Shown: positions 4,587 through 15,107 of the stretch, piece by piece | How the letters are laid out: every line of letters starts with the position of its first letter | Position numbering within the stretch: position 1 is the stretch's first letter | Assembly (NCBI RefSeq): GCF_000718325.1 | Contig: NZ_JOFV01000005.1 | Span: 62,001-126,000, forward strand | DNA: 64,000 nucleotides | Source: Oerskovia turbata | GTDB taxonomy: Bacteria; Actinomycetota; Actinomycetes; Actinomycetales; Cellulomonadaceae | Direction: 5' to 3' | Notes under the pieces: generated by a model | What the model was told of the DNA's origin: nothing | The model's input: only the letters and a program-made list of their open reading frames with translations | Database searches by the model: none | Program-made: the position numbers and the translations under genes

Positions 4587-4615
4587 TTGACAGCAGGCAG
4601 AAGCCTCCTTAGGGT
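4587..4615 (+). promoter_or_regulatory. Sigma-A-like promoter of the large secreted-protein gene
   Basis: TTGACA at 4587-4592, a 17-nt spacer and TAGGGT at 4610-4615 form a near-consensus vegetative promoter. A second GTTGAC lies 22 bp upstream of the first. A small dyad, AGTCA-N4-TGACT (4621-4634), sits around the expected start point and could be an operator. AAGGAGG at 4642-4648 is the ribosome site. Confidence 0.65.
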
Positions 4616-4658
4616 CCGAGAGTCAACGCTGACTCGTCTTCAAGGAGGAAGAACTCCA

Positions 4659-7600
4659 GTGCGAACCCCCTCACGCCATCGAAGAGGCCTCTCAGGCCTG
4701 CTCGGAGCTTCCCTGCTCGTACCCCTCGCCTTCGCCGGAGCACTCCCGTCGGCACAGGCTGCCGACACCGAGATGGAGCCCGGCGTCACGCTGCGCACGT
4801 TCCAGCTCGCCCAGGACCCCGGGTCCGTGTGCACCCTCAAGTCGGGCACCACGCCCAACGTCGACAAGCTCATGCCGACGATCGACTGGAGCACGCCCGA
4901 GCACTTCGGCGCCTCGGACCGCTTCATCACGCACGCGCTCGCGACGCTCACGGTCCCGGCCGAGGGTGAGTACACGTTCCGCGTGACGAACGACGACGGC
5001 GCGCTCGTCTACGTCGACGACCAGCTCCTCCTCGAGAACGACGGCCCGAACGACTCGACCTCGGTCGAGGGGGCGATCACTCTCGCCGAAGGTGCTCACG
5101 ACCTGCGGGTCGAGTACTACGAGGGCACCGACAAGCAGCGCCTGACGCTCGCGTGGAAGACCCCGGGGTCCTCGACGTTCGAGGTCGTCCCGACGTCGGC
5201 CCTGAGCACCGAGGCGAACGTCGTGCGGGTCACCGCGCCCGGCAACAAGTACTGCGAGGGAGCCACGGACACCTCGGGCGACGGTCTGCGCCTGGACACG
5301 GTCAACCCGAACTACGAGCTGATCGACCTGCGCCCCGCGGGCTTCGAGCCCAAGGTCTCGGGCCTCGCGTTCACACCGGACGAGAAGCTGGCCGTCGTGA
5401 CCACGGGCGACGTGAGCTCCGGCGGCTGGCGGCCCGACCCGACGACCGGTGAGGTGTACCTCCTCGACGGCGTGATCGACGCGACCGGACCCGAGGACGT
5501 CACCGTCACGAAGGTCGCGGACAAGCTGCTCAACCCGATGGGCATCGAGGTCATCGAGGACTCGATCTTCGTCTCCGAGCGGTACCAGCTCACGCAGCTC
5601 ACCGACCCGGACGGCGACGGCTTCTACGACACGCACACGAAGATCGCCGGGTGGCCCGACGGCGGCAACTTCCACGAGTTCGCGTTCGGCCTGATCCACG
5701 ACGAGGACTACTTCTACGTCAACCTCTCCGTCGCGATCGACAACGGCGGCGCGACGACCACCCCGCAGCCTGCCGCCAACCGTGGCACGGCGATCAAGAT
5801 CGACCGCGCGACGGGCGAGGTCACCTACGTCGCGGGCGGCCTGCGCACGCCGAACGGCATCGGCTTCGGCCCCGAGGGCGAGATCTTCGGGACGGACAAC
5901 CAGGGCGCGTGGCTGCCCGCGAACAAGCTCGTGCACATCGAGCAGGACAAGTTCTTCAACCACTTCACCACCCCGGCCGGGCCGTTCGACGCGAACCCCG
6001 TGTCCCAGCCCGCGCTGTGGCTCCCGCAGAACGAGATCGCCAACTCCCCGGGCAACCCGATCCTCGTGCAGGACGGCGAGTTCGCCGGCCAGATGCTCCT
6101 CGGCGACGTCACGTACGGCGGCCTCCAGCGCGCGTTCCTCGAGAAGGTCGACGGCGAGTTCCAGGGGGCGGTCTTCCGCCACACCGCGGGCCTCGAGGTC
6201 GGCGCCAACCGCGTCATCACCGGCCCCGACGGCGCGCTGTACGTCGGCGGGACGGGCGAGGGCGGCAACTGGGGCGAGTCCGGCAAGCTGCGGTTCGGCC
6301 TGCAGAAGCTCGCCACGGTGAACGAGGACTCCTTCGACATGAAGGAGATGCGCGTCGTCGAGGGCGGGTTCGAGATCGAGTACACCGACCCGGTGTCCGA
6401 CGCCGTCGTCGCGAAGCTGGCCGACGCCTACCGCCTCACGCAGTGGCGCTACGTGCCGACCCAGCAGTACGGCGGTCCCAAGGTCGACGAGCAGCCGCTG
6501 TTCGTCACGGACGCCACCGTCTCCGAGGACCGCACCACGGTCACGCTCGCGGTCGACGGTCTCAAGCCCGGCCACGTCGTGCACCTGCGCTCCCCGCGCC
6601 CGTTCGCCTCGGACGAGGGCGCCGAGCTCCTGAGCACCGAGGCCTGGTACACCCTCAACTCGCTGCCCGGCTACGTCGCCCCGGCGGACCGCGGCTGGTA
6701 CGAGGCCGAGGAGGCGCAGCCGCTCGGTGGCTCGAGCCTCGGCTCGGACCACAGCAACTACTCCGGCGCGGGCTTCGCCGCCGGGATGCAGAACGTCGGC
6801 TCGGGCCGCACGTTCGCCGTGACGGTCCCCGAGGCGGGCACCTACCCGCTCAACCTGCGCTACGCGAACGGCATCCACCCGTACACCGAGCTGCGCGCCA
6901 AGAACGTCTCGCTCTACGTCAACGGCCAGAAGGTCGGCCCGTGGACGCTGCCCACGACCGGCGACTGGAAGGTGTGGGAGACGATCACGCGTGACGTCGA
7001 CCTCGTGGCCGGGCACAACGCGATCACCCTCAGGTACGACCAGGGTGACCAGGGCAACGTGAACCTGGACGTGCTGTCGATCGGGCAGGACCCCGACATC
7101 TGCTCCCCGGCAGAGGTCGAGGAGGGCTACCGCGGCATCTTCGACGGTACCCTCGCGAGCCTGGCCGACTGGAAGCTCGCGGGCGCCGGGACGTTCGGTC
7201 GTCAGGACGACTGCTCGATCCGCACCAACGGCGGCATGGGACTGCTCTGGTACACGGCCCAGGAGCTCGAGGAGTACTCGCTCAAGCTCGACTGGAAGCT
7301 CGTCAAGGACGACAACGGCGGCGTCTTCGTCGGCTTCCCGAACCCCGGCAACGACCCCTGGGTCGCGGTCAACCAGGGCTACGAGATCCAGATCGACGCG
7401 AGCGACGCGGCCGACCGCACCACGGGCGCGATCTACACGTTCCAGGGTGCTGACGCGGCGGCCGTGACCGCGGCCCTCAAGCCCGTGGGGCAGTGGAACG
7501 CGTACGACATCCGGGTCGAGGGGGACCGCATCCGGATCTACCTCAACGACGTGCTCGTCAACGACTTCACGAGCACCGACCCGGCGCGCGACCTGTCGAG

Positions 7601-7970
7601 CGGGTTCATCGGCATCCAGAACCACGGCAACGGTGAGACGGTCTCCTACCGCAACATCCGCGTCAAGGACCTGGCGGCCGAGCCCGAGCCCGAGCTCGCG
7701 GTGTCGGTGACCGTCCAGCCCAAGTGCGTCGCGGGCAAGGTCATGCTCACCGTGCGTGCCGTCAACGACGACACGGTGCCGGTCGACGTCGTGCTCAGCA
7801 CGCCGTTCGGCAAGAAGACGATGGTCGGCGTGCTGCCGGGCAAGTCGGCTCAGCAGTCGTTCTCGACCCGCTCGACCTCGGTCGAGGCCGGGACGGCGAC
7901 CGTGACGGCGGGCGCCGGGGACAAGGAGGTCGTGGTCGAGACGGCCTACGACGCGTCGAGCTGTGGCTGA
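4659..7970 (+). CDS. Secreted multidomain protein: PA14, beta-propeller, CBM6/35-like, DUF1080
   Basis: A 1103-residue exported protein likely to bind and act on carbohydrate outside the cell. A signal peptide covers residues 1 to about 35, with cleavage probably after SAQA. A PA14-like domain spans about 45-165 (EGEYTFRVTNDDGALVYVDD). A six-bladed NHL/sorbosone-dehydrogenase-like propeller spans about 230-545 (LAFTPDEKLAVVTTGD, RTPNGIGFGPEGEIFGTDN). A CBM6/35-type module spans about 675-808 (WYEAEEAQPLGGSS). A DUF1080/3-keto-disaccharide-hydrolase-like jelly roll spans about 820-1005 (WKLVKDDNGGVFVGF). A small beta domain ends the protein. GTG 4659 is chosen for its AAGGAGG site and signal peptide. 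DUF1080 enzymes act on 3-keto-glycosides; activity here is inferred. Confidence 0.85.
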   Translation: MRTPSRHRRGLSGLLGASLLVPLAFAGALPSAQAADTEMEPGVTLRTFQLAQDPGSVCTLKSGTTPNVDKLMPTIDWSTPEHFGASDRFITHALATLTVPAEGEYTFRVTNDDGALVYVDDQLLLENDGPNDSTSVEGAITLAEGAHDLRVEYYEGTDKQRLTLAWKTPGSSTFEVVPTSALSTEANVVRVTAPGNKYCEGATDTSGDGLRLDTVNPNYELIDLRPAGFEPKVSGLAFTPDEKLAVVTTGDVSSGGWRPDPTTGEVYLLDGVIDATGPEDVTVTKVADKLLNPMGIEVIEDSIFVSERYQLTQLTDPDGDGFYDTHTKIAGWPDGGNFHEFAFGLIHDEDYFYVNLSVAIDNGGATTTPQPAANRGTAIKIDRATGEVTYVAGGLRTPNGIGFGPEGEIFGTDNQGAWLPANKLVHIEQDKFFNHFTTPAGPFDANPVSQPALWLPQNEIANSPGNPILVQDGEFAGQMLLGDVTYGGLQRAFLEKVDGEFQGAVFRHTAGLEVGANRVITGPDGALYVGGTGEGGNWGESGKLRFGLQKLATVNEDSFDMKEMRVVEGGFEIEYTDPVSDAVVAKLADAYRLTQWRYVPTQQYGGPKVDEQPLFVTDATVSEDRTTVTLAVDGLKPGHVVHLRSPRPFASDEGAELLSTEAWYTLNSLPGYVAPADRGWYEAEEAQPLGGSSLGSDHSNYSGAGFAAGMQNVGSGRTFAVTVPEAGTYPLNLRYANGIHPYTELRAKNVSLYVNGQKVGPWTLPTTGDWKVWETITRDVDLVAGHNAITLRYDQGDQGNVNLDVLSIGQDPDICSPAEVEEGYRGIFDGTLASLADWKLAGAGTFGRQDDCSIRTNGGMGLLWYTAQELEEYSLKLDWKLVKDDNGGVFVGFPNPGNDPWVAVNQGYEIQIDASDAADRTTGAIYTFQGADAAAVTAALKPVGQWNAYDIRVEGDRIRIYLNDVLVNDFTSTDPARDLSSGFIGIQNHGNGETVSYRNIRVKDLAAEPEPELAVSVTVQPKCVAGKVMLTVRAVNDDTVPVDVVLSTPFGKKTMVGVLPGKSAQQSFSTRSTSVEAGTATVTAGAGDKEVVVETAYDASSCG

Positions 7971-7989: not shown

Positions 7990-8040
7990 GTGCATGATTC
8001 GGCTGCGACACGCCCGGCGTGTCGCAGCCGAATCATGCAC
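7990..8040 (+). terminator. 23-bp perfect inverted repeat after the secreted-protein gene
   Basis: Arms 7990-8012 and 8018-8040 are exact reverse complements around 5 nt; inner CC/GG pairs shrink the loop further. It starts 19 nt after the stop codon and lacks a T-tract. It is preceded by the CCGCTGA that also begins the glyA hairpin. Confidence 0.75.
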
Positions 8041-8129
8041 CCACCACGACAGGCGCCTGCGGCGTCTGTCACCATCTGCTGGGGCGTCGACGACGACGTC
8101 CCACCGTGTCGTGGAGAGGACGTCGACCC

Positions 8130-10319
8130 ATGCTCGCGCTCCTGGGACGGGTCATGGCCCGGCACCGCATCATCGTGCTCGTCGTGTGGGGAGTGGTCGC
8201 GCTGGTCGGCGCGGTGGTCGGTGGCGGGGTCTTCGACCGCACGACCGCGGTCGACAGCCTGGCGCCCGGTGCGCCGTCGGCCCGGGCGCAGGCGCTGCTC
8301 GACGAGCTCGACCCGCAGGGCGAGACCCTCACGGCGTTCGTCGGCGGGGTCGACTTCTTCACGCCCTCGCTCGTCGAGAGCGGGACCCGCGTGATGCACG
8401 AGGTCCGAGAGATCCCGGGCGTGCTGGAGGTCTCGGACGCCTTCACGTCAGGTGGCCTGATCTCGGACGACGGCCTCGGTTCGCTCGTCCTGGTCGAGCT
8501 GGACCACGACCTCACGGACGAGCAGGCGCTCGTCGTCGGTGACCGTGTGGCGGCTGCTCTCCGGACCATCGACGCACCCGAGGTGGTCGTGGGCGGGGAG
8601 CTCATGGCCGAGCGGACGTTCGCCGACATCGCGACGGCCGACGCCGTGGTGGGGGAGTCGGTCGCCCTCGTGGTGCTGTGCGTCGTCCTGGTGCTCGTGC
8701 TGGGCGGCCTGCGGGCCGGTCTGGCGCCGATCGTCGCCGCGCTCGCGTCGATCGCGGCCTCGCTCCTCGGGCTGAGCGCGCTCGCGGGCGCGGTGCCCGT
8801 GAGCGAGTTCGCGGTCAACGTCGTGACGCTCCTGGGCCTCGGCCTGGCCGTCGACTACAGCCTTCTGGTGGTCGTGCGGTTCCGGGAGGAGCGCGAGGCG
8901 GCCCCCGAGGCGACGCTCGAGGAGCTGCTGGCCCGGACCGTGTCGACCGCGGGCCGGGCGGTCCTCGTCTCGGGGCTCGCGGTCGCGTCGGCGCTCGGTG
9001 GGCTGCTCGTCCTGGCGGACCCCCTGCTCGCGAGCATGGCGCTGGGCGGTCTGCTCGTGGTCGCGCTCACGACGCTCGCCGGGCTCACGCTCGTGCCGGC
9101 CCTGGTCGCCGTGCTGCACGCGTCGATCCCTGCCCCACGGACCCGGACCTGGGTCCGCCGCCGCACGGGGCGCGGTCCCGGTCTGCTCGCGCGGTCCGCG
9201 GCGTTCGCCCAGCGGCGCCCCGTGGCCGTCACGCTCGGGTCGACGGCGGTCCTCCTGCTCCTGAGCGCACCGCTGGCCTCGCTCGCGCTGGGGGCCTCGG
9301 ACGCGCGGTCCCTGCCGCCGGGGACGCCCGAGCGGGTCGCGCAGGAGAGGATCGAGCAGGACTTCGAGGTCCTGGGCGTCCAACCGGTCGAGCTCGTGCT
9401 GGGGGCGTCCGTCGAGGACCCCGAGGTCCAGTCGTTCCTCGACGCGGTCTACGCGCTGCCCGGTGTCGAGGACGTCGAGCACCTCACCGGTTTCCCGCCC
9501 GACGTGACGGTCGCCGAGGCCACCCCGGCGGGCACGGCGACGGGTGAGGCGGCGCAGGCCCTGGTCCGGGACGTCCGGGCGATGGATGTCCCGTTCTCGG
9601 TGCAGGTCGCGGGCCCCGCGGCCGAGCTGGTCGACGCGACGCAGCAGTCGCGCGACCGGCTGCCCTGGGCGTTCGCCGTGGTCGTGCTGCCCGCGATGCT
9701 CCTGCTGGGCTGGCTCACCCGGTCGGTCGTGGTGCCGCTCAAGGCGCTGTTCCTGAACCTGCTCGCCCTGACCGCGTCGTTGGGCGTGCTGGTCGCGGTC
9801 TTCCAGTGGGGCTGGGGTGCGCGGCTGCTGGGCTTCGAACCGACGGGCACGATCGACGCCACGAGTCCGGCGCTGCTGTTCGTCTTCCTGTTCGGCCTGT
9901 CGATGGACTACGAGGTGTTCCTCCTCGCGCGCATCGGGGAGGAGTGGCGCCGTCGGACGGCGGACGACCGCGGTGCGAACGACCGGGCGGTCCTCGCGGG
10001 CGTCGTGGCGTCCGGTCCCGTGATCACGGTCGCGGCGGTGTCTATCGGGATCGTGTTCGCGGGCTTCGCGCTGGGCGACCTCGTGGCCATGAAGGAGATC
10101 GGGGTGGGGATGGCGGTCGCGGTCCTGCTCGACGTCACGATCGTCCGTGGCCTGCTGCTGCCTGCCTCGATGTCGCTCCTGGGTCGCTGGAACTGGTGGT
10201 TCCCGGGTGGGCGACCGCGCCCTGGCCCTCGCGTCGGGCCGGGCGGGGTGCGCGGCGAGGAGTCCTCGCCGCGCACCCTCGTGGGCAGCGGGGCGTCAGC
10301 AGGCGCCGGCCGGGGCTGA
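8130..10319 (+). CDS. MMPL-family RND-type transporter
   Basis: A 729-residue transporter of the MMPL family, which in actinobacteria moves lipids or hydrophobic compounds with the proton gradient. Twelve membrane helices are arranged as 1+5, an extracytoplasmic loop, and 1+5. The paired sequences GLGLAVDYSLLVVVRFREE (about residues 240-260) and FGLSMDYEVFLLARIGEEW (about 590-610) are the duplicated Gly-Asp-Tyr helices that carry protons. ATG 8130 is preceded by GAGAGGA at good spacing, which rejects the longer upstream frame running through the hairpin. The gene ends inside the convergent galTK gene, overlapping its last 24 nt. The substrate is unknown. Confidence 0.9.
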   Translation: MLALLGRVMARHRIIVLVVWGVVALVGAVVGGGVFDRTTAVDSLAPGAPSARAQALLDELDPQGETLTAFVGGVDFFTPSLVESGTRVMHEVREIPGVLEVSDAFTSGGLISDDGLGSLVLVELDHDLTDEQALVVGDRVAAALRTIDAPEVVVGGELMAERTFADIATADAVVGESVALVVLCVVLVLVLGGLRAGLAPIVAALASIAASLLGLSALAGAVPVSEFAVNVVTLLGLGLAVDYSLLVVVRFREEREAAPEATLEELLARTVSTAGRAVLVSGLAVASALGGLLVLADPLLASMALGGLLVVALTTLAGLTLVPALVAVLHASIPAPRTRTWVRRRTGRGPGLLARSAAFAQRRPVAVTLGSTAVLLLLSAPLASLALGASDARSLPPGTPERVAQERIEQDFEVLGVQPVELVLGASVEDPEVQSFLDAVYALPGVEDVEHLTGFPPDVTVAEATPAGTATGEAAQALVRDVRAMDVPFSVQVAGPAAELVDATQQSRDRLPWAFAVVVLPAMLLLGWLTRSVVVPLKALFLNLLALTASLGVLVAVFQWGWGARLLGFEPTGTIDATSPALLFVFLFGLSMDYEVFLLARIGEEWRRRTADDRGANDRAVLAGVVASGPVITVAAVSIGIVFAGFALGDLVAMKEIGVGMAVAVLLDVTIVRGLLLPASMSLLGRWNWWFPGGRPRPGPRVGPGGVRGEESSPRTLVGSGASAGAGRG

Positions 10320-12779
10320 CGGCACGGCCAGCAGGAACCCGGGTGCGCCGAGCCCTGCCCGGGCGAAGGCTGCGGTCACGGCGTCCGCGACGGCTTCGGC
10401 GCGGTCGGCCGGGACGAGCGCGATGGCCGACCCGCCGAACCCGCCGCCCGTCATGCGGGCTCCCAGGGCACCGGCGTCGCGCGCGGCCTCGACTGCGACG
10501 TCGAGCTCGGTCGCGGAGACCTCGTAGTCGTCGCGCAGGGACGCGTGGGACGCGTCGAGCAGCGGCCCGACGTCGGAGGCTCGCCCTGCGCGCAGCAGCG
10601 ACACCAGGTCCTGGGTCCGGGCGATCTCGGTCACCACGTGCCGGACGCGGCGGCGCGAGACGTCGTCGGGCAGGCGGTCGAGCGCTGCACCGAGGGCCTC
10701 GGCGAACGCAGCGTCGCCCTCCGCGGCGGCGATGACCGTGTCTGCGAGCTCGCGGAGGTTCGCGAGGCCCAGCGTCGTGGCGGCCGCCTCGCACGTCGCT
10801 CGTCGCTGTGCGTACTGGCCGTCGACCAGCGCGTGCTCGGCACGGGTGTCGATCACGAGCAGCGCGAGCCCCTCGGCCGCGAGGTCGAACGGGATCTGTT
10901 CGACGGCGCGGGCCGGGTCGAGCCCCGGGCGGCAGTCGAGGAGCAGAGCGTGACCCGGTGCGCAGCGCAACGAGGCCGACTGGTCCATGCCGCCCGTCGG
11001 TGCGCCCGCGATCTCGTTCTCGGCGCGGATCGCGGCGGCCGCCAGGGCCGCGCGTCCGGCGTCGGTGGCCGCGAGGCCCAGGCCTGCGACGTCGTCGATA
11101 CCCACCGCGACCGAGCACTCGAGCGCGGCCGACGACGACAGGCCCGCACCGTAGGGCACGCACGAGTCGATCACGGCGTCGAAGCCGCGCACCTGCGCCG
11201 CCGACCCGCCCGTCGCCTGGAGGTGCTGCCCGAGGGCCCACGCGACCCCGGCCACGTACGCGGCCCAGCCGGTCACGGCTCCCGGCGCGACGTCCTCGAG
11301 CCGCCCGGTCCACGCAGCACCGGGCTCCTGGGTCGAGGCGAGGCGCACGACCGAGTCGGTCCGGGGGCGCAGCGCGACGTACGTGCGGTGGGGGAGCGCT
11401 ATGGGCAGGCACAGCCCGGCGTTGTAGTCGGTGTGCTCGCCGATGATGTTGACGCGCCCGGGTGCCGCGTAGACGCGGACGTCCTCTGCGTCGTCGGCCG
11501 AGAAGACCTCCGCGAAGGCCTGTCGGACGCGGTCCGCACCGACGTCGTCGGGCCAGGACTCGACCCACTGCGCGGCCGGGGCCGGGGCGAGGGCCTGCAG
11601 GCGCGCGGCGATCCGCTCGGGCGTGGTGTCGCTGACCCATGCGCCCATGCCGGACTCGGATCCAGCGAGGTACTTGAGCTTGCCCGGCGCGCGCAGGACC
11701 GAGAAGACCTGCAGGTGCAGGCGCGACAGGTCGCGTCCCTCGCGCACCGGGGCCTGGTGCCAGGCCGCGATGTAGGGCAGGGCGACGGGCGCGCCACCCG
11801 GCCCCTCGAAGAACAGGTCGAGGCGACGCAGGAGCTCGAGGTAGGCGACCGCGAGGTCGTCGCGCTCGGCGCCCGAGAGCGCGGGCAGGTCGGGCACGTC
11901 GCGGCGCGGCGCGAGGTGCACCTCGACGGGCCAGCGGGCCGCGAACGGGACGTAGGCGACCCAGTGCTCGGTCTCCAGGACGATGCGGCGGCCGTCGGCG
12001 AGCTCGGCGTCGAGGACGTCGCGCAGCAGGTTGCCGCCCGTGCGTTCGTGGTGCGCGCGGGCCTGGGCGAGCATCGCGCGGGTCGTGGGCGTGAGGTACG
12101 GGTAGCCGTAGATCTGGCCGTGCGGGTGGTGGAGCGTGACCCCGATCTCCTGGCCGCGGTTCTCGAAGCAGAAGACCTGCTCGACGCCCGGCTCACGCCC
12201 GAGCGCCTCGGTGCGGTCGGCCCAGGCGTCGATGACGGTGCGCACGCGCTGCGGGGGCAGCGCGCCGAACGAGGAGGTGTGGTCGCTCGAGAAGACGATG
12301 ACCTCGCAGCGGCCCGACGCCGGCGCGCGGGTCTCGAGCGTGCCCTCGCCACCGAAGAAGCCGTCCGGCGCACCTGTGCCGTCGGAGACGCCTGGCACGA
12401 ACTGCAGCGACGGGAAGCGGTTCTCGAAGACCACGACGTCGTAGTCGGTGTCGGGGATCTCGCCGTCCGAGTAGGCAGCGCCGGGGCGGGCGGGGCACAG
12501 CGGGCACGAGTCCGCCGCGGGCAGGAACGTGCGGTTCATGCGGTGCGCGGCCATCGGGATCCAGTCGCCCGAGAGCGGGTCGAGGCGCATCTCGGGGCCG
12601 GTGTACGGGTGCTCGTGCCCGTCGGGTCCGGTCACGGGGGCGAAACGGTCGCCCAGCGGGCGGGGGTCGTCGAGCCGTCGCGTGAGCTCGCCCGAGACGT
12701 ACGCGGGGGAGTCGTCGAAGTAGACGAGCTCGCGGCCGTCGGCCAGACGGGTCAGGGTGCGGCGCAGGTGCTGGTTCAT
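10296..12779 (-). CDS. galTK: GalT-GalK fusion: galactose-1-phosphate uridylyltransferase / galactokinase
   Basis: One 827-residue frame encodes two Leloir enzymes. Residues 1 to about 395 are GalT: zinc pair CPLC near 88-91 and catalytic HHPHGQIYGYPY near 217-228, which carries the uridylylated histidine. Residues about 405-827 are GalK: PGRVNIIGEHTDYN near 438-452, GAGLSSSAALE near 543, and MTGGGFGGSA near the end. The two steps, galactose to Gal-1-P and Gal-1-P to UDP-Gal, would be made on one chain. No stop and no ATG, GTG or TTG suitable for a separate GalK lies in the junction (about 11,520-11,590), where valines use GTC. The start overlaps the regulator stop as ATGA. GalE is not nearby. 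Confidence 0.93.
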   Translation of the reverse strand: MNQHLRRTLTRLADGRELVYFDDSPAYVSGELTRRLDDPRPLGDRFAPVTGPDGHEHPYTGPEMRLDPLSGDWIPMAAHRMNRTFLPAADSCPLCPARPGAAYSDGEIPDTDYDVVVFENRFPSLQFVPGVSDGTGAPDGFFGGEGTLETRAPASGRCEVIVFSSDHTSSFGALPPQRVRTVIDAWADRTEALGREPGVEQVFCFENRGQEIGVTLHHPHGQIYGYPYLTPTTRAMLAQARAHHERTGGNLLRDVLDAELADGRRIVLETEHWVAYVPFAARWPVEVHLAPRRDVPDLPALSGAERDDLAVAYLELLRRLDLFFEGPGGAPVALPYIAAWHQAPVREGRDLSRLHLQVFSVLRAPGKLKYLAGSESGMGAWVSDTTPERIAARLQALAPAPAAQWVESWPDDVGADRVRQAFAEVFSADDAEDVRVYAAPGRVNIIGEHTDYNAGLCLPIALPHRTYVALRPRTDSVVRLASTQEPGAAWTGRLEDVAPGAVTGWAAYVAGVAWALGQHLQATGGSAAQVRGFDAVIDSCVPYGAGLSSSAALECSVAVGIDDVAGLGLAATDAGRAALAAAAIRAENEIAGAPTGGMDQSASLRCAPGHALLLDCRPGLDPARAVEQIPFDLAAEGLALLVIDTRAEHALVDGQYAQRRATCEAAATTLGLANLRELADTVIAAAEGDAAFAEALGAALDRLPDDVSRRRVRHVVTEIARTQDLVSLLRAGRASDVGPLLDASHASLRDDYEVSATELDVAVEAARDAGALGARMTGGGFGGSAIALVPADRAEAVADAVTAAFARAGLGAPGFLLAVPSAPAGAC

Positions 12780-13630
12780 CGGGAGGTACGACCGTCCTGG
12801 GATGCGGGGGTGGGTGGGGTCTGGGCGGGCCGGGTCGGGCGAGGGGTCTCGTCGTGCGTGGCGACCACGACCTGTCCGACGACGTCGCGCACCGCCTCCT
12901 GGTCGGGCGCCGGGAGGGCGTCGTCGGTCACGAGGACGTCGACCTGGTCGAGCCGGGCGAAGACGCTCAGGCCCGTGGTGCTCCACTTGGAGTGGTCGGC
13001 CAGGACGACCGTCCGGCCGGCGATCGCGACGAGGGCGCGGTTGGTCGCGGCCTCGTCCAGGTTCGGCGTCGTCAGCCCGGCCTCGACGCTCACGCCGTGC
13101 GCGCCCAGGAAGGTCTGGTCGACGCGCAGGCTCGCGAGCGCGGCCTCGGTGAGGGGCCCGACCAGGGCGTCCGACGGCGTCCGGGAGCCTCCGGTGAGGA
13201 CGGTCTCGAGCCGGGGGTCGCCCGTGCGGTGCAGGGCCTCGGCGACCGGGAGCGAGTTCGTCACGACGGTCAGCGGCCGCAGGGCGGCGTCCGCCGCGAT
13301 CTCCACGGCGAGGAGGTGCGTCGTGGTGCCGGCGGACAGGGCGATCGAGGACCCGGGGGAGACGAGGCGCGCGGCGGTACGCGCGATCGCTCGTTTCTCG
13401 TCGAGCGCGAGCGTGCTCTTGGCCTCGAACCCCGGCTCGTGCGACGTGGCCTGCGGCGAGACCGCGCCGCCGTGGACCTTGCGGAGCAGCCCCTGGTCGG
13501 CGAGCTCGAGCAGGTCCCGGCGGACCGTCATGTCGGAGACGCCGAGCTCCTGGGTGAGGTCGGCGATCCGGACGGCGCCGTGGTCGCGGAGGCCCGCGAG
13601 GATGCGTTCGTGGCGCTGGGAGGCGAGCAT
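12776..13630 (-). CDS. DeoR-family repressor of the galTK operon
   Basis: A 284-residue sugar-responsive DeoR/GlpR-type regulator. The N-terminal winged helix reads RHERILAGLRDHGAVRIADLTQELGVSDMTVRRDLLELADQGLLRKVHGGAV, the DeoR signature. The C-terminal sensor resembles a sugar isomerase fold (SIALSAGTTTHLLA, then FLGAHGVSVEAGLTTPNLDEAATNRAL), which in this family binds sugar phosphates. It is the first gene of a two-gene operon; its TGA overlaps the galTK ATG by 4 nt, so translation is coupled. Gal-1-P or Tag-6-P is a reasonable inducer but is inferred. An in-frame ATG at 13648 would add six residues. Confidence 0.88.
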   Translation of the reverse strand: MLASQRHERILAGLRDHGAVRIADLTQELGVSDMTVRRDLLELADQGLLRKVHGGAVSPQATSHEPGFEAKSTLALDEKRAIARTAARLVSPGSSIALSAGTTTHLLAVEIAADAALRPLTVVTNSLPVAEALHRTGDPRLETVLTGGSRTPSDALVGPLTEAALASLRVDQTFLGAHGVSVEAGLTTPNLDEAATNRALVAIAGRTVVLADHSKWSTTGLSVFARLDQVDVLVTDDALPAPDQEAVRDVVGQVVVATHDETPRPTRPAQTPPTPASQDGRTSR

Positions 13631-13643
13631 GCAGCCATGGTGA

Positions 13644-13676
13644 CACATTCAAACAGAAACGAACAACATTGAACAT
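13644..13676 (-). promoter_or_regulatory. AT-rich control region upstream of the DeoR-galTK operon
   Basis: A 33-bp AT-rich patch in otherwise GC-rich DNA holds repeated ACATT(C/G)AA units at 13644 and 13666, separated by A-rich DNA. Such repeats are typical of DeoR-family operators, so autoregulation is likely. The exact promoter boxes are not clear. Confidence 0.45.
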
Positions 13677-13690
13677 GAGGGGTGTGGCGG

Positions 13691-13722
13691 CCCGGATACC
13701 CGGATGCCCGGATGCCCGGGTG
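13691..13722. repeat. Four tandem 8-bp repeats
   Basis: CCCGGATA, CCCGGATG, CCCGGATG and CCCGGGTG are contiguous, lying between the galactose operon and the efflux operon. The function is unknown; it may be a slippage-prone microsatellite. Confidence 0.85.
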
Positions 13723-13726
13723 CTGG

Positions 13727-13749
13727 CGGGCGTGGGCCGCCCACGCCCG
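13727..13749. terminator. Short GC-only hairpin
   Basis: Ten-bp perfect arms (13727-13736 and 13740-13749) with a 3-nt loop. It lies downstream of the stronger 13765-13799 hairpin for minus-strand transcription and may be a second stop. Confidence 0.4.
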
Positions 13750-13764
13750 GCGCCCGCAGCCGAC

Positions 13765-13799
13765 GACGGCCGGTCACCCGCACGGGGTGACCGGCCGTC
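13765..13799 (-). terminator. Terminator of the first efflux operon
   Basis: Fifteen-bp perfect arms, 13765-13779 and 13785-13799, with a 5-nt loop, 18 nt beyond the permease stop on the minus strand. There is no clear T-run. Confidence 0.7.
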
Positions 13800-13817
13800 A
13801 GGTGGCGCTTCGTCAGG

Positions 13818-15107
13818 TCAGATGCCCCCGCGCAGCGCGGCGATCGGCTCGATCGCCGCTGCCTTGAGCGCGGGATAGGTCCCCGCGAGCAGGCCGATCA
13901 CGCCTCCCAGGAAGGCTGAACCGATCGCCATACGGATGTCGAGGATGGGGGTCCACTCCTGGGCGACCGAGACGACCACCACCGTGAACACCCCCAGCGA
14001 CGCACCGACCAGACCCCCGAGCAGCCCGATGACCACGGACTCCACGACGAACTGACCGGCGATGTCCCGCTTGGTCGCGCCGAGGGCACGACGCAGACCG
14101 ATCTCCCCGACCCGTTCCATGACCGACAGCAGCGTGACGTTCGCGATCCCGAGACCGCCCACGAGGAGGGCGATCCCGCCCAGCGCCAGGAAGATCGCGT
14201 TGATGTCCGCCTGGACGTTCTCCTGGAGCGCAGATCCGCTCACCGGCGCCTGGACCTTGAACGAGGTGGGCGCGTTGGGGTCGAGAGTGACGGGGCCCTG
14301 TTCCGCGACCAGGGAACCTGCTCCGGTCTCGATGTGGATCTGCAGCTCCTCGGGCGCGCCGACGGCGAAGTCCTGTCGCGCGGTGCCGACGGGGAGCACC
14401 ACCGCGTCGAGAAGGTCCGTCCGTCGCTTCACGTCGCCGAAGATCCCGATGACGGTGTACGCGTCCTCACCGATGAAGATCGACGGCTGGCTGTCGACGC
14501 GGTTGACACCGAGGCTCTCCGCAGCGCGCTCGCCCAGCACCACGACCCGGTCGCTGCGCGCGTCGTGCCCGCTGTCGAAGAAACGTCCGACCACGATCCG
14601 CCCCCGCACGGCGTCGACGAGACCGCCGGAGCCCGCGACGACCACGGGGCTCGCCTTCTCGGCGACCGAGGGATCGTTGACCGGGACGGCGGTGACCCGT
14701 CGGTCCTCGATGTCGACCTGTGCCACGAGCCCGGCGGCGACGACCCCGTTGACCTGGGCCACACGGTCCGCGCCGTCCCACGGGATGCGCCCCTTGGGGC
14801 GCGCCTCGTCCCCGGTGCCGGCCTTCGCCGGGGTGATGACGACCTGGGTCGCGGCGACGGCGTCGAACTGGCGGCTGATCTGGCCCGCGGCGGTCTGTGC
14901 GAGCCCGACCGTGATCACGACCGACGCGATGCCGAGGACCGTGCCGAGGATCGTCAGGACCAGACGCCCGGGGCGGGCGCCGATCCCGTGCGCGGCCTCG
15001 GCGAAGAGGTCGCGGGCGTTGAACCGGTCACGAGCCCGGCTACGGTGGATCCGCTCCTTCGTCGCCCGCCTCGGTAGACGCGCAGCCAACGCGTCGAACG
15101 CCCTCAT
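13818..15107 (-). CDS. MacB/FtsX-type ABC transporter permease
   Basis: A 429-residue permease of the MacB family: one N-terminal helix (LVLTILGTVLGIASVVITVGL, about 46-66), a large extracytoplasmic domain of about 220 residues, and three C-terminal helices forming the FtsX domain (IFLALGGIALLVGGLGIANV; VVESVVIGLLGGLVGASLG; GGVIGLLAGTYPALKAA). The cytoplasmic loop VMERVGEIGLRRALGATKRDI is the characteristic coupling sequence. It works with the ATPase encoded immediately upstream, whose stop overlaps this ATG as ATGA. Such transporters push substrates such as peptides or antibiotics from the outer face of the membrane instead of pumping through it. It is the last gene of a four-gene operon. 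Confidence 0.9.
   Translation of the reverse strand: MRAFDALAARLPRRATKERIHRSRARDRFNARDLFAEAAHGIGARPGRLVLTILGTVLGIASVVITVGLAQTAAGQISRQFDAVAATQVVITPAKAGTGDEARPKGRIPWDGADRVAQVNGVVAAGLVAQVDIEDRRVTAVPVNDPSVAEKASPVVVAGSGGLVDAVRGRIVVGRFFDSGHDARSDRVVVLGERAAESLGVNRVDSQPSIFIGEDAYTVIGIFGDVKRRTDLLDAVVLPVGTARQDFAVGAPEELQIHIETGAGSLVAEQGPVTLDPNAPTSFKVQAPVSGSALQENVQADINAIFLALGGIALLVGGLGIANVTLLSVMERVGEIGLRRALGATKRDIAGQFVVESVVIGLLGGLVGASLGVFTVVVVSVAQEWTPILDIRMAIGSAFLGGVIGLLAGTYPALKAAAIEPIAALRGGI

Follow-up and report, generated by a model that had tools for sequence, protein, structure and literature searches.

The window, i.e. the whole stretch of 64,000 nucleotides from Oerskovia turbata that was analysed, contains a gene, galTK, in which a complete GalT is followed by a complete GalK (Table 1). 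A single stop-free frame of 827 codons runs on the minus strand from the ATG at 12779 to the TGA at 10298-10296. Third-position G+C stays between 0.87 and 0.98 throughout this frame, and the coding frame does not switch where the two halves meet. The gene is the sole match to GalT or GalK in the genome (E ≤ 0.001; 4.03 Mb, 74 contigs), and at the same threshold no second galT or galK that would make the fusion dispensable was found elsewhere in it. A galE gene scores above its cut-off on another contig of the same genome, and its product is predicted to complete the pathway step alongside galTK.

Table 1. Position of galTK, its parts and the adjoining genes in the window
Feature	Position	Strand	Remarks
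galT-galK fusion gene	10296..12779	minus	827 aa + stop; ORF, Pfam, TIGRFAM models
GalT half	11586..12779	minus	residues 1-398; PF01087 + PF02744; TIGR00209; solved GalT relatives
CPLC (residue 92)	12495-12506	minus	motif in GalT half
HHPHGQ (residue 217)	12114-12131	minus	motif in GalT half
Last in-frame ATG before the junction	11646..11648	minus	codon 378, within GalT core; next start is GTG, codon 478
Extra linker PAPAAQ	11568..11585	minus	residues 399-404; site of the galT stop/galK start overlap in separate relatives
Junction-spanning stretch of the fusion protein			around LQALAPAPAAQWVESWPDDVGADR
GalK half	10299..11567	minus	residues 405-827; PF10509 + PF00288 + PF08544; TIGR00131; 6tep
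PGRVN motif	11421-11462	minus	GalK half
ATGA overlap	12776..12779	minus	DeoR stop codon/galTK start codon
DeoR/GlpR-type regulator	12776..13648	minus	upstream of galTK; PF08220 + PF00455; synteny
MMPL-family transporter gene	8019-10319	plus	Pfam

The regulator encoded upstream of galTK is 91% identical to one of Oerskovia paurometabola. The initial annotation had described the two genes as coupled by ATGA, and this overlap is indeed present, in the window as in the other congeneric loci (7/7 altogether) and in L008. In the Cellulosimicrobium-type loci L009, L010 and L115-L117 the deoR gene lies 48-63 nt upstream without an overlap, and many family members with separate genes also have a DeoR regulator in an ATGA/GTGA arrangement. 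A scan of 10200-13900 revealed no sigma-70-like promoter and one weak terminator-like site. The 3' end of galTK overlaps the end of the MMPL-family transporter gene tail to tail by 24 nt (10296-10319). Positions 4587-7970 encode a large protein of secreted type, in which Pfam identifies PA14, CBM_35/CBM_6, DUF7133 and 3-keto-disaccharide hydrolase domains.

Domains and active sites of the two halves

The coordinates given for the gene are exact, and all motifs that had been quoted for the single frame were found. In the GalT half, PF01087 covers residues 62-229 (101.1 against a cut-off of 22.1) and PF02744 residues 244-398 (61.4 against 29.2). The class I GalT model TIGR00209 passed its cut-off (132.6 against 102.1 bits) and NF008724 stayed under its cut-off of 448 with 184.7. 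The nearest solved GalT structure, 6k5z, aligns over residues 63-397. In the alignment with E. coli GalT (1hxq), the HPHxQ motif, whose nucleophilic histidine we take to be H166 of the E. coli enzyme, is present as H218-P-H220-G-Q222, and H218, H220 and Q222 are invariant in all 62 aligned fusions. The zinc site of GalT, which presumably consists of CxxC and two histidines as in E. coli, is complete in the window protein (C92, C95, H167 and H218), but these residues are not universal among the aligned fusions, where C92 and H167 were each found in 44/62 and C95 in 40/62. The iron site of the E. coli enzyme, which we assume to be formed by Glu182, His281, His296 and His298, is altered at two of the four positions, with Met236 in place of Glu182 and Gln357 in place of His298 in the same alignment. 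This iron site is not known to be essential for GalT activity.

The GalK half carries the motifs PGRVNIIGEHTDYN (residue 440), GLSSSAAL (546) and MTGGGFGGSA (776) and is matched by PF10509 at residues 420-472, PF00288 at 508-604 and PF08544 at 726-806. The galactokinase model TIGR00131 passed its cut-off (248.4 against 226.65 bits), and four further galactokinase models matched this half, all under their cut-offs. The nearest solved galactokinase, 6tep, aligns over residues 402-824. Besides the three motifs (among them GLSSSAA and GGGFGG), R442, E448, H449, D451 and D599 are all present, including the catalytic arginine and aspartate, which we equate with Arg37 and Asp186 of the human enzyme. 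R442, H449, D451 and D599 are invariant in 62/62 aligned fusions and E448 is replaced by Asp in one.

Both halves are under purifying selection. In 21 pairs from the seven congeneric genomes, the median dN/dS is 0.117 for GalT and 0.147 for GalK, against 0.324 for residues 396-436 at the junction.

Distribution and origin of the fused genes

The uninterrupted fusion is present in all seven Oerskovia genomes examined, two of which are single-contig assemblies, with 93-100% identity. In a second genus (g8), which we infer to be Cellulosimicrobium, 15 of the 17 genomes possess it as one full-length piece. In one of the exceptions (G518, 75% complete; C482/C405) a contig end cuts the gene after residue 746, and in the other (G517, 83% complete; C24:36434-38945) the gene is split into three abutting pieces, the frame shifting close to residues 325 and 655. 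Since these breaks lie away from the junction, the junction itself is uninterrupted in 17/17 genomes. One of the four genomes of a further genus (g24) is fused as well. Within the family sample, 116 of 121 genomes gave some match and 19 a single stop-free full-length match (seven g1 Oerskovia, ten g8, one g12 and one g24). A match was obtained for 300 of the 394 genomes of the class sample and, among the matches listed, only the window's own genome had a stop-free one over both halves. The initial annotation was thus right that GalT and GalK normally come from separate genes, as they do in most of the relatives seen. Judged by a frame that stays uninterrupted between species, the GalT-GalK observation at 10296-12779 is confirmed as a natural gene fusion.

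In the protein database, 265 sequences matched the window protein and 4748 a distant fusion (120 listed each). Named full-length fusions among the matches listed come from Cellulosimicrobium sp. 4261, Corynebacterium xerosis, a Micrococcaceae MAG and Anaeromyxobacteraceae MAGs. In four proteins from other lineages (P0148, P0152, P0157 and P0163) the order is reversed, with GalK preceding GalT. Three of the database rows listed are annotated with both activities, as galactokinase/galactose-1-phosphate uridylyltransferase (family 1). A plasmid search matched 142 records, every one with less than 60% identity. The 12 plasmid matches listed consist of two to three separate pieces, ten with separately named galT/galK, one with a single galactokinase and one unannotated.

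Other arrangements were seen in these searches. In five genomes of 1.3-1.5 Mb from one family (L091-L095), galT and galK lie in frame with each other and are separated by one stop, which in L093 and L094 stands directly ahead of the galK start (L091, L092 and L095 are on the other strand); read-through of this stop would yield a GalT-GalK fusion. GalT fused to a GH35 beta-galactosidase domain, another fusion of GalT with a pathway neighbour, accounts for 25 of the 120 matches listed (P0057, P0060 and others), the named rows being from Actinoplanes, Paractinoplanes and Micromonospora. In P0072 (656 aa), a DeoR-type regulator is joined to GalT; this is a single metagenome sequence and possibly an error.

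Distances between conserved anchors were used to compare the junctions, from SDTxPExIA in GalT to PGRVN in galactokinase and, as a second anchor, to a tryptophan near the galactokinase N-terminus. There were 28 separate loci, six without an anchor and with at least one pair of rows (L017, L130) apparently from the same genome. In all 22 with both anchors, the genes overlap by 4 nt in the ATGA/GTGA manner and the distance equals 2 mod 3, whereas it is 0 mod 3 in all 18 fused rows (14 distinct loci). The second anchor gave the same picture, with 2 mod 3 in 21/21 separate loci (7/28 unscored) and 0 mod 3 in 14/14 fused ones. Compared with the 35 nt of four separate relatives, this second distance is longer by 4 nt in the seven Oerskovia loci (39 nt) and by 7 nt in six loci of the sister group (42 nt), as measured in extant loci. 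Since galT and galK overlap in different frames in the relatives, the fusion required the length at this place to change by a net +1 (mod 3), and the simplest reading is that such a change at the old overlap would have deleted stop and start together.

A quick tree was calculated under plain LG+G4, rather than a mixture model, from 70 concatenated GalT+GalK rows, 20 of them fused against 50 others, and the fused/separate label needs three changes on it. A single clade of all 20 actinomycete fused rows was rejected (p-AU 0.0004). A clade of Oerskovia/Cellulosimicrobium with the Corynebacterium-type group, a name borne by two rows only, was weakly rejected (p-AU 0.036), and one with the sole fused member of g24 (Sediminihabitans) was not rejected (p-AU 0.098). 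Since the single clade is rejected by the AU test, at least some of the tested actinomycete fusions are independent, and by these trees the GalT-GalK fusion has evolved repeatedly. On a wider tree, Fitch parsimony counts 16 changes, which is not taken as the number of origins, since single metagenome proteins with possible read errors are included.

Proposed function and alternative readings

In the Leloir pathway, GalK makes galactose-1-phosphate (Gal-1-P) and GalT swaps Gal-1-P onto UDP. We consider it very probable that galTK, in a deoR-galTK operon, encodes a bifunctional Leloir enzyme whose single chain has a class I GalT at its N-terminus and a galactokinase at its C-terminus, and that this enzyme arose when an ancestral overlap was joined and needs no channelling. 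In the ancestor, an ATGA/GTGA overlap would have coupled the translation of galT and galK. When the length at the overlap changed by a net +1 (mod 3), the galT stop and the galK start would have been lost and the two frames united. The galactokinase half would then form Gal-1-P and the GalT half UDP-galactose, with both active sites behaving as they do in the unfused enzymes, and no channelling step would be required. In two published studies, ATGA overlaps are reported to couple translation and to be overrepresented among genes encoding complex subunits (PMC6728339, PMC10666635). Since they couple translation, the overlapping ancestors probably already co-produced both enzymes in balance, and the fusion may contribute little more than a constant ratio: it would fix at 1:1 what, going by the published overlaps, coupling had roughly held before.

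Two other explanations would deny that one long protein acts in the cell. Since the genes of relatives overlap out of frame, one indel error in sequencing or assembly could mimic a fusion of two separate genes, and a read frameshift close to the junction had been named beforehand as something that would refute the fusion. With the same frame in 7/7 congeneric genomes, including the two single-contig ones, and a whole junction in 17/17 genomes of the second genus, such an error is out of consideration, and its probability is negligible. The long frame might also be made and then cleaved, or GalK might additionally be started internally, so that separate GalT and GalK would exist in the cell. 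Proteolysis is conceivable in the stretch ahead of the PGRVN motif, which is variable and rich in Ala, Pro and Asp in the alignment, but the residues LAPAPAAQWVESW next to the junction are nearly identical in all seven genomes. As originally noticed, the junction also lacks a start codon: there is no in-frame ATG, GTG or TTG from codon 379 to 477, and codon 478 is already past the PGRVN motif. A complete GalK therefore cannot begin independently from these codons, and an internal start is rejected on this ground. Taken together, cleavage or internal initiation is very unlikely.

The initial annotation had further suggested that fusion could channel Gal-1-P. Gal-1-P, the intermediate between GalK and GalT, is toxic in other organisms. 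The fusion could therefore be an adaptation for channelling or holding it, with the two sites placed for direct transfer from GalK to GalT. The two enzymes catalyze consecutive steps and such fusions arose more than once; moreover, an association of gene fusions with unstable or toxic intermediates is described in published surveys (PMC4921024). However, the same source notes that the channelling idea has been challenged, since fusion by itself failed to promote channelling. The anchor-to-anchor stretch across the junction measures 144-171 nt within the genus and 138-183 nt between genera, the junction is under the weakest constraint in the gene, and both domain orders exist. The channelling proposal is thus unsupported by our data and we regard it as improbable. 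Another possibility, somewhat less remote but still unlikely, is that GalT and GalK of Cellulomonadaceae form a physical complex, set at 1:1 by the stop/start overlap, as a metabolon that would limit free Gal-1-P, the fusions being fossils of it. A physical link would be favoured because the overlap is conserved and fusion is repeated.

If the two halves act as one bifunctional Leloir enzyme, galTK is a clean natural case in which an overlapping out-of-frame gene pair became one enzyme, and close relatives with separate genes can serve as controls. It is therefore a good system to ask whether fusing consecutive enzymes alters toxic intermediate levels or merely replaces translational coupling. 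A fused galactokinase/uridylyltransferase would also be a ready single-gene tool for UDP-galactose production. GalT-GalK fusions are already known as entries in public databases. However, since most of the named ones carry the name of one half, the other activity can escape pathway annotation. No paper on a natural GalT-GalK fusion was found among titles and beginnings of abstracts, in a coverage outside which most subscription literature lies. The words galT, galK and galactokinase are absent from the available part of PMC3711429, and galact, galT and Leloir from that of the main text of PMC4921024, whose online fusion database or supplements may hold such a fusion. The accessible part of PMC3898844 has the words galactokinase-uridylyltransferase.

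Comparison with known systems

The closest counterparts of galTK are the separate galT-galK pairs of Cellulomonadaceae and other actinomycetes, which share its domains, their order and, in many cases, the DeoR neighbour. Separate members of the family are 65-76% identical to the window protein in GalT and about 55-67% in GalK. They differ in producing two proteins from different frames with an ATGA/GTGA stop/start overlap (22/22 with anchors). The database fusions from Cellulosimicrobium, Corynebacterium xerosis, Micrococcaceae and Anaeromyxobacteraceae MAGs resemble galTK in possessing both complete enzymes with GalT first. However, at least some of them are of independent origin by the AU test, in which the actinomycete fusions were compared, and they are named by one or both halves.

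There are also analogous enzymes of other sugar pathways, which are compared here as far as the available parts of the publications describe them. FKP, the L-fucokinase/GDP-fucose pyrophosphorylase of Bacteroides fragilis, likewise combines an N-terminal nucleotidyl-transferring enzyme with a C-terminal GHMP sugar-1-kinase for consecutive steps of a salvage pathway, but its pyrophosphorylase has another fold and uses GTP, its linker is a large structured three-helix element and it is a tetramer (PMC11982464). In contrast, the transferase of the window fusion is GalT and the added linker has about six residues; a Pfam search (E ≤ 0.001) found no pyrophosphorylase domain of the FKP type in the window protein but the GalT domains instead. 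The glucuronokinase/UDP-glucuronic acid pyrophosphorylase of zebrafish is similar in having a C-terminal GHMP sugar-1-kinase and an N-terminal nucleotidyltransferase, and differs in its sugar, its transferase family and its eukaryotic origin (PMC3938481). According to its authors, the separated domains of the zebrafish enzyme retain their properties (PMC3938481).
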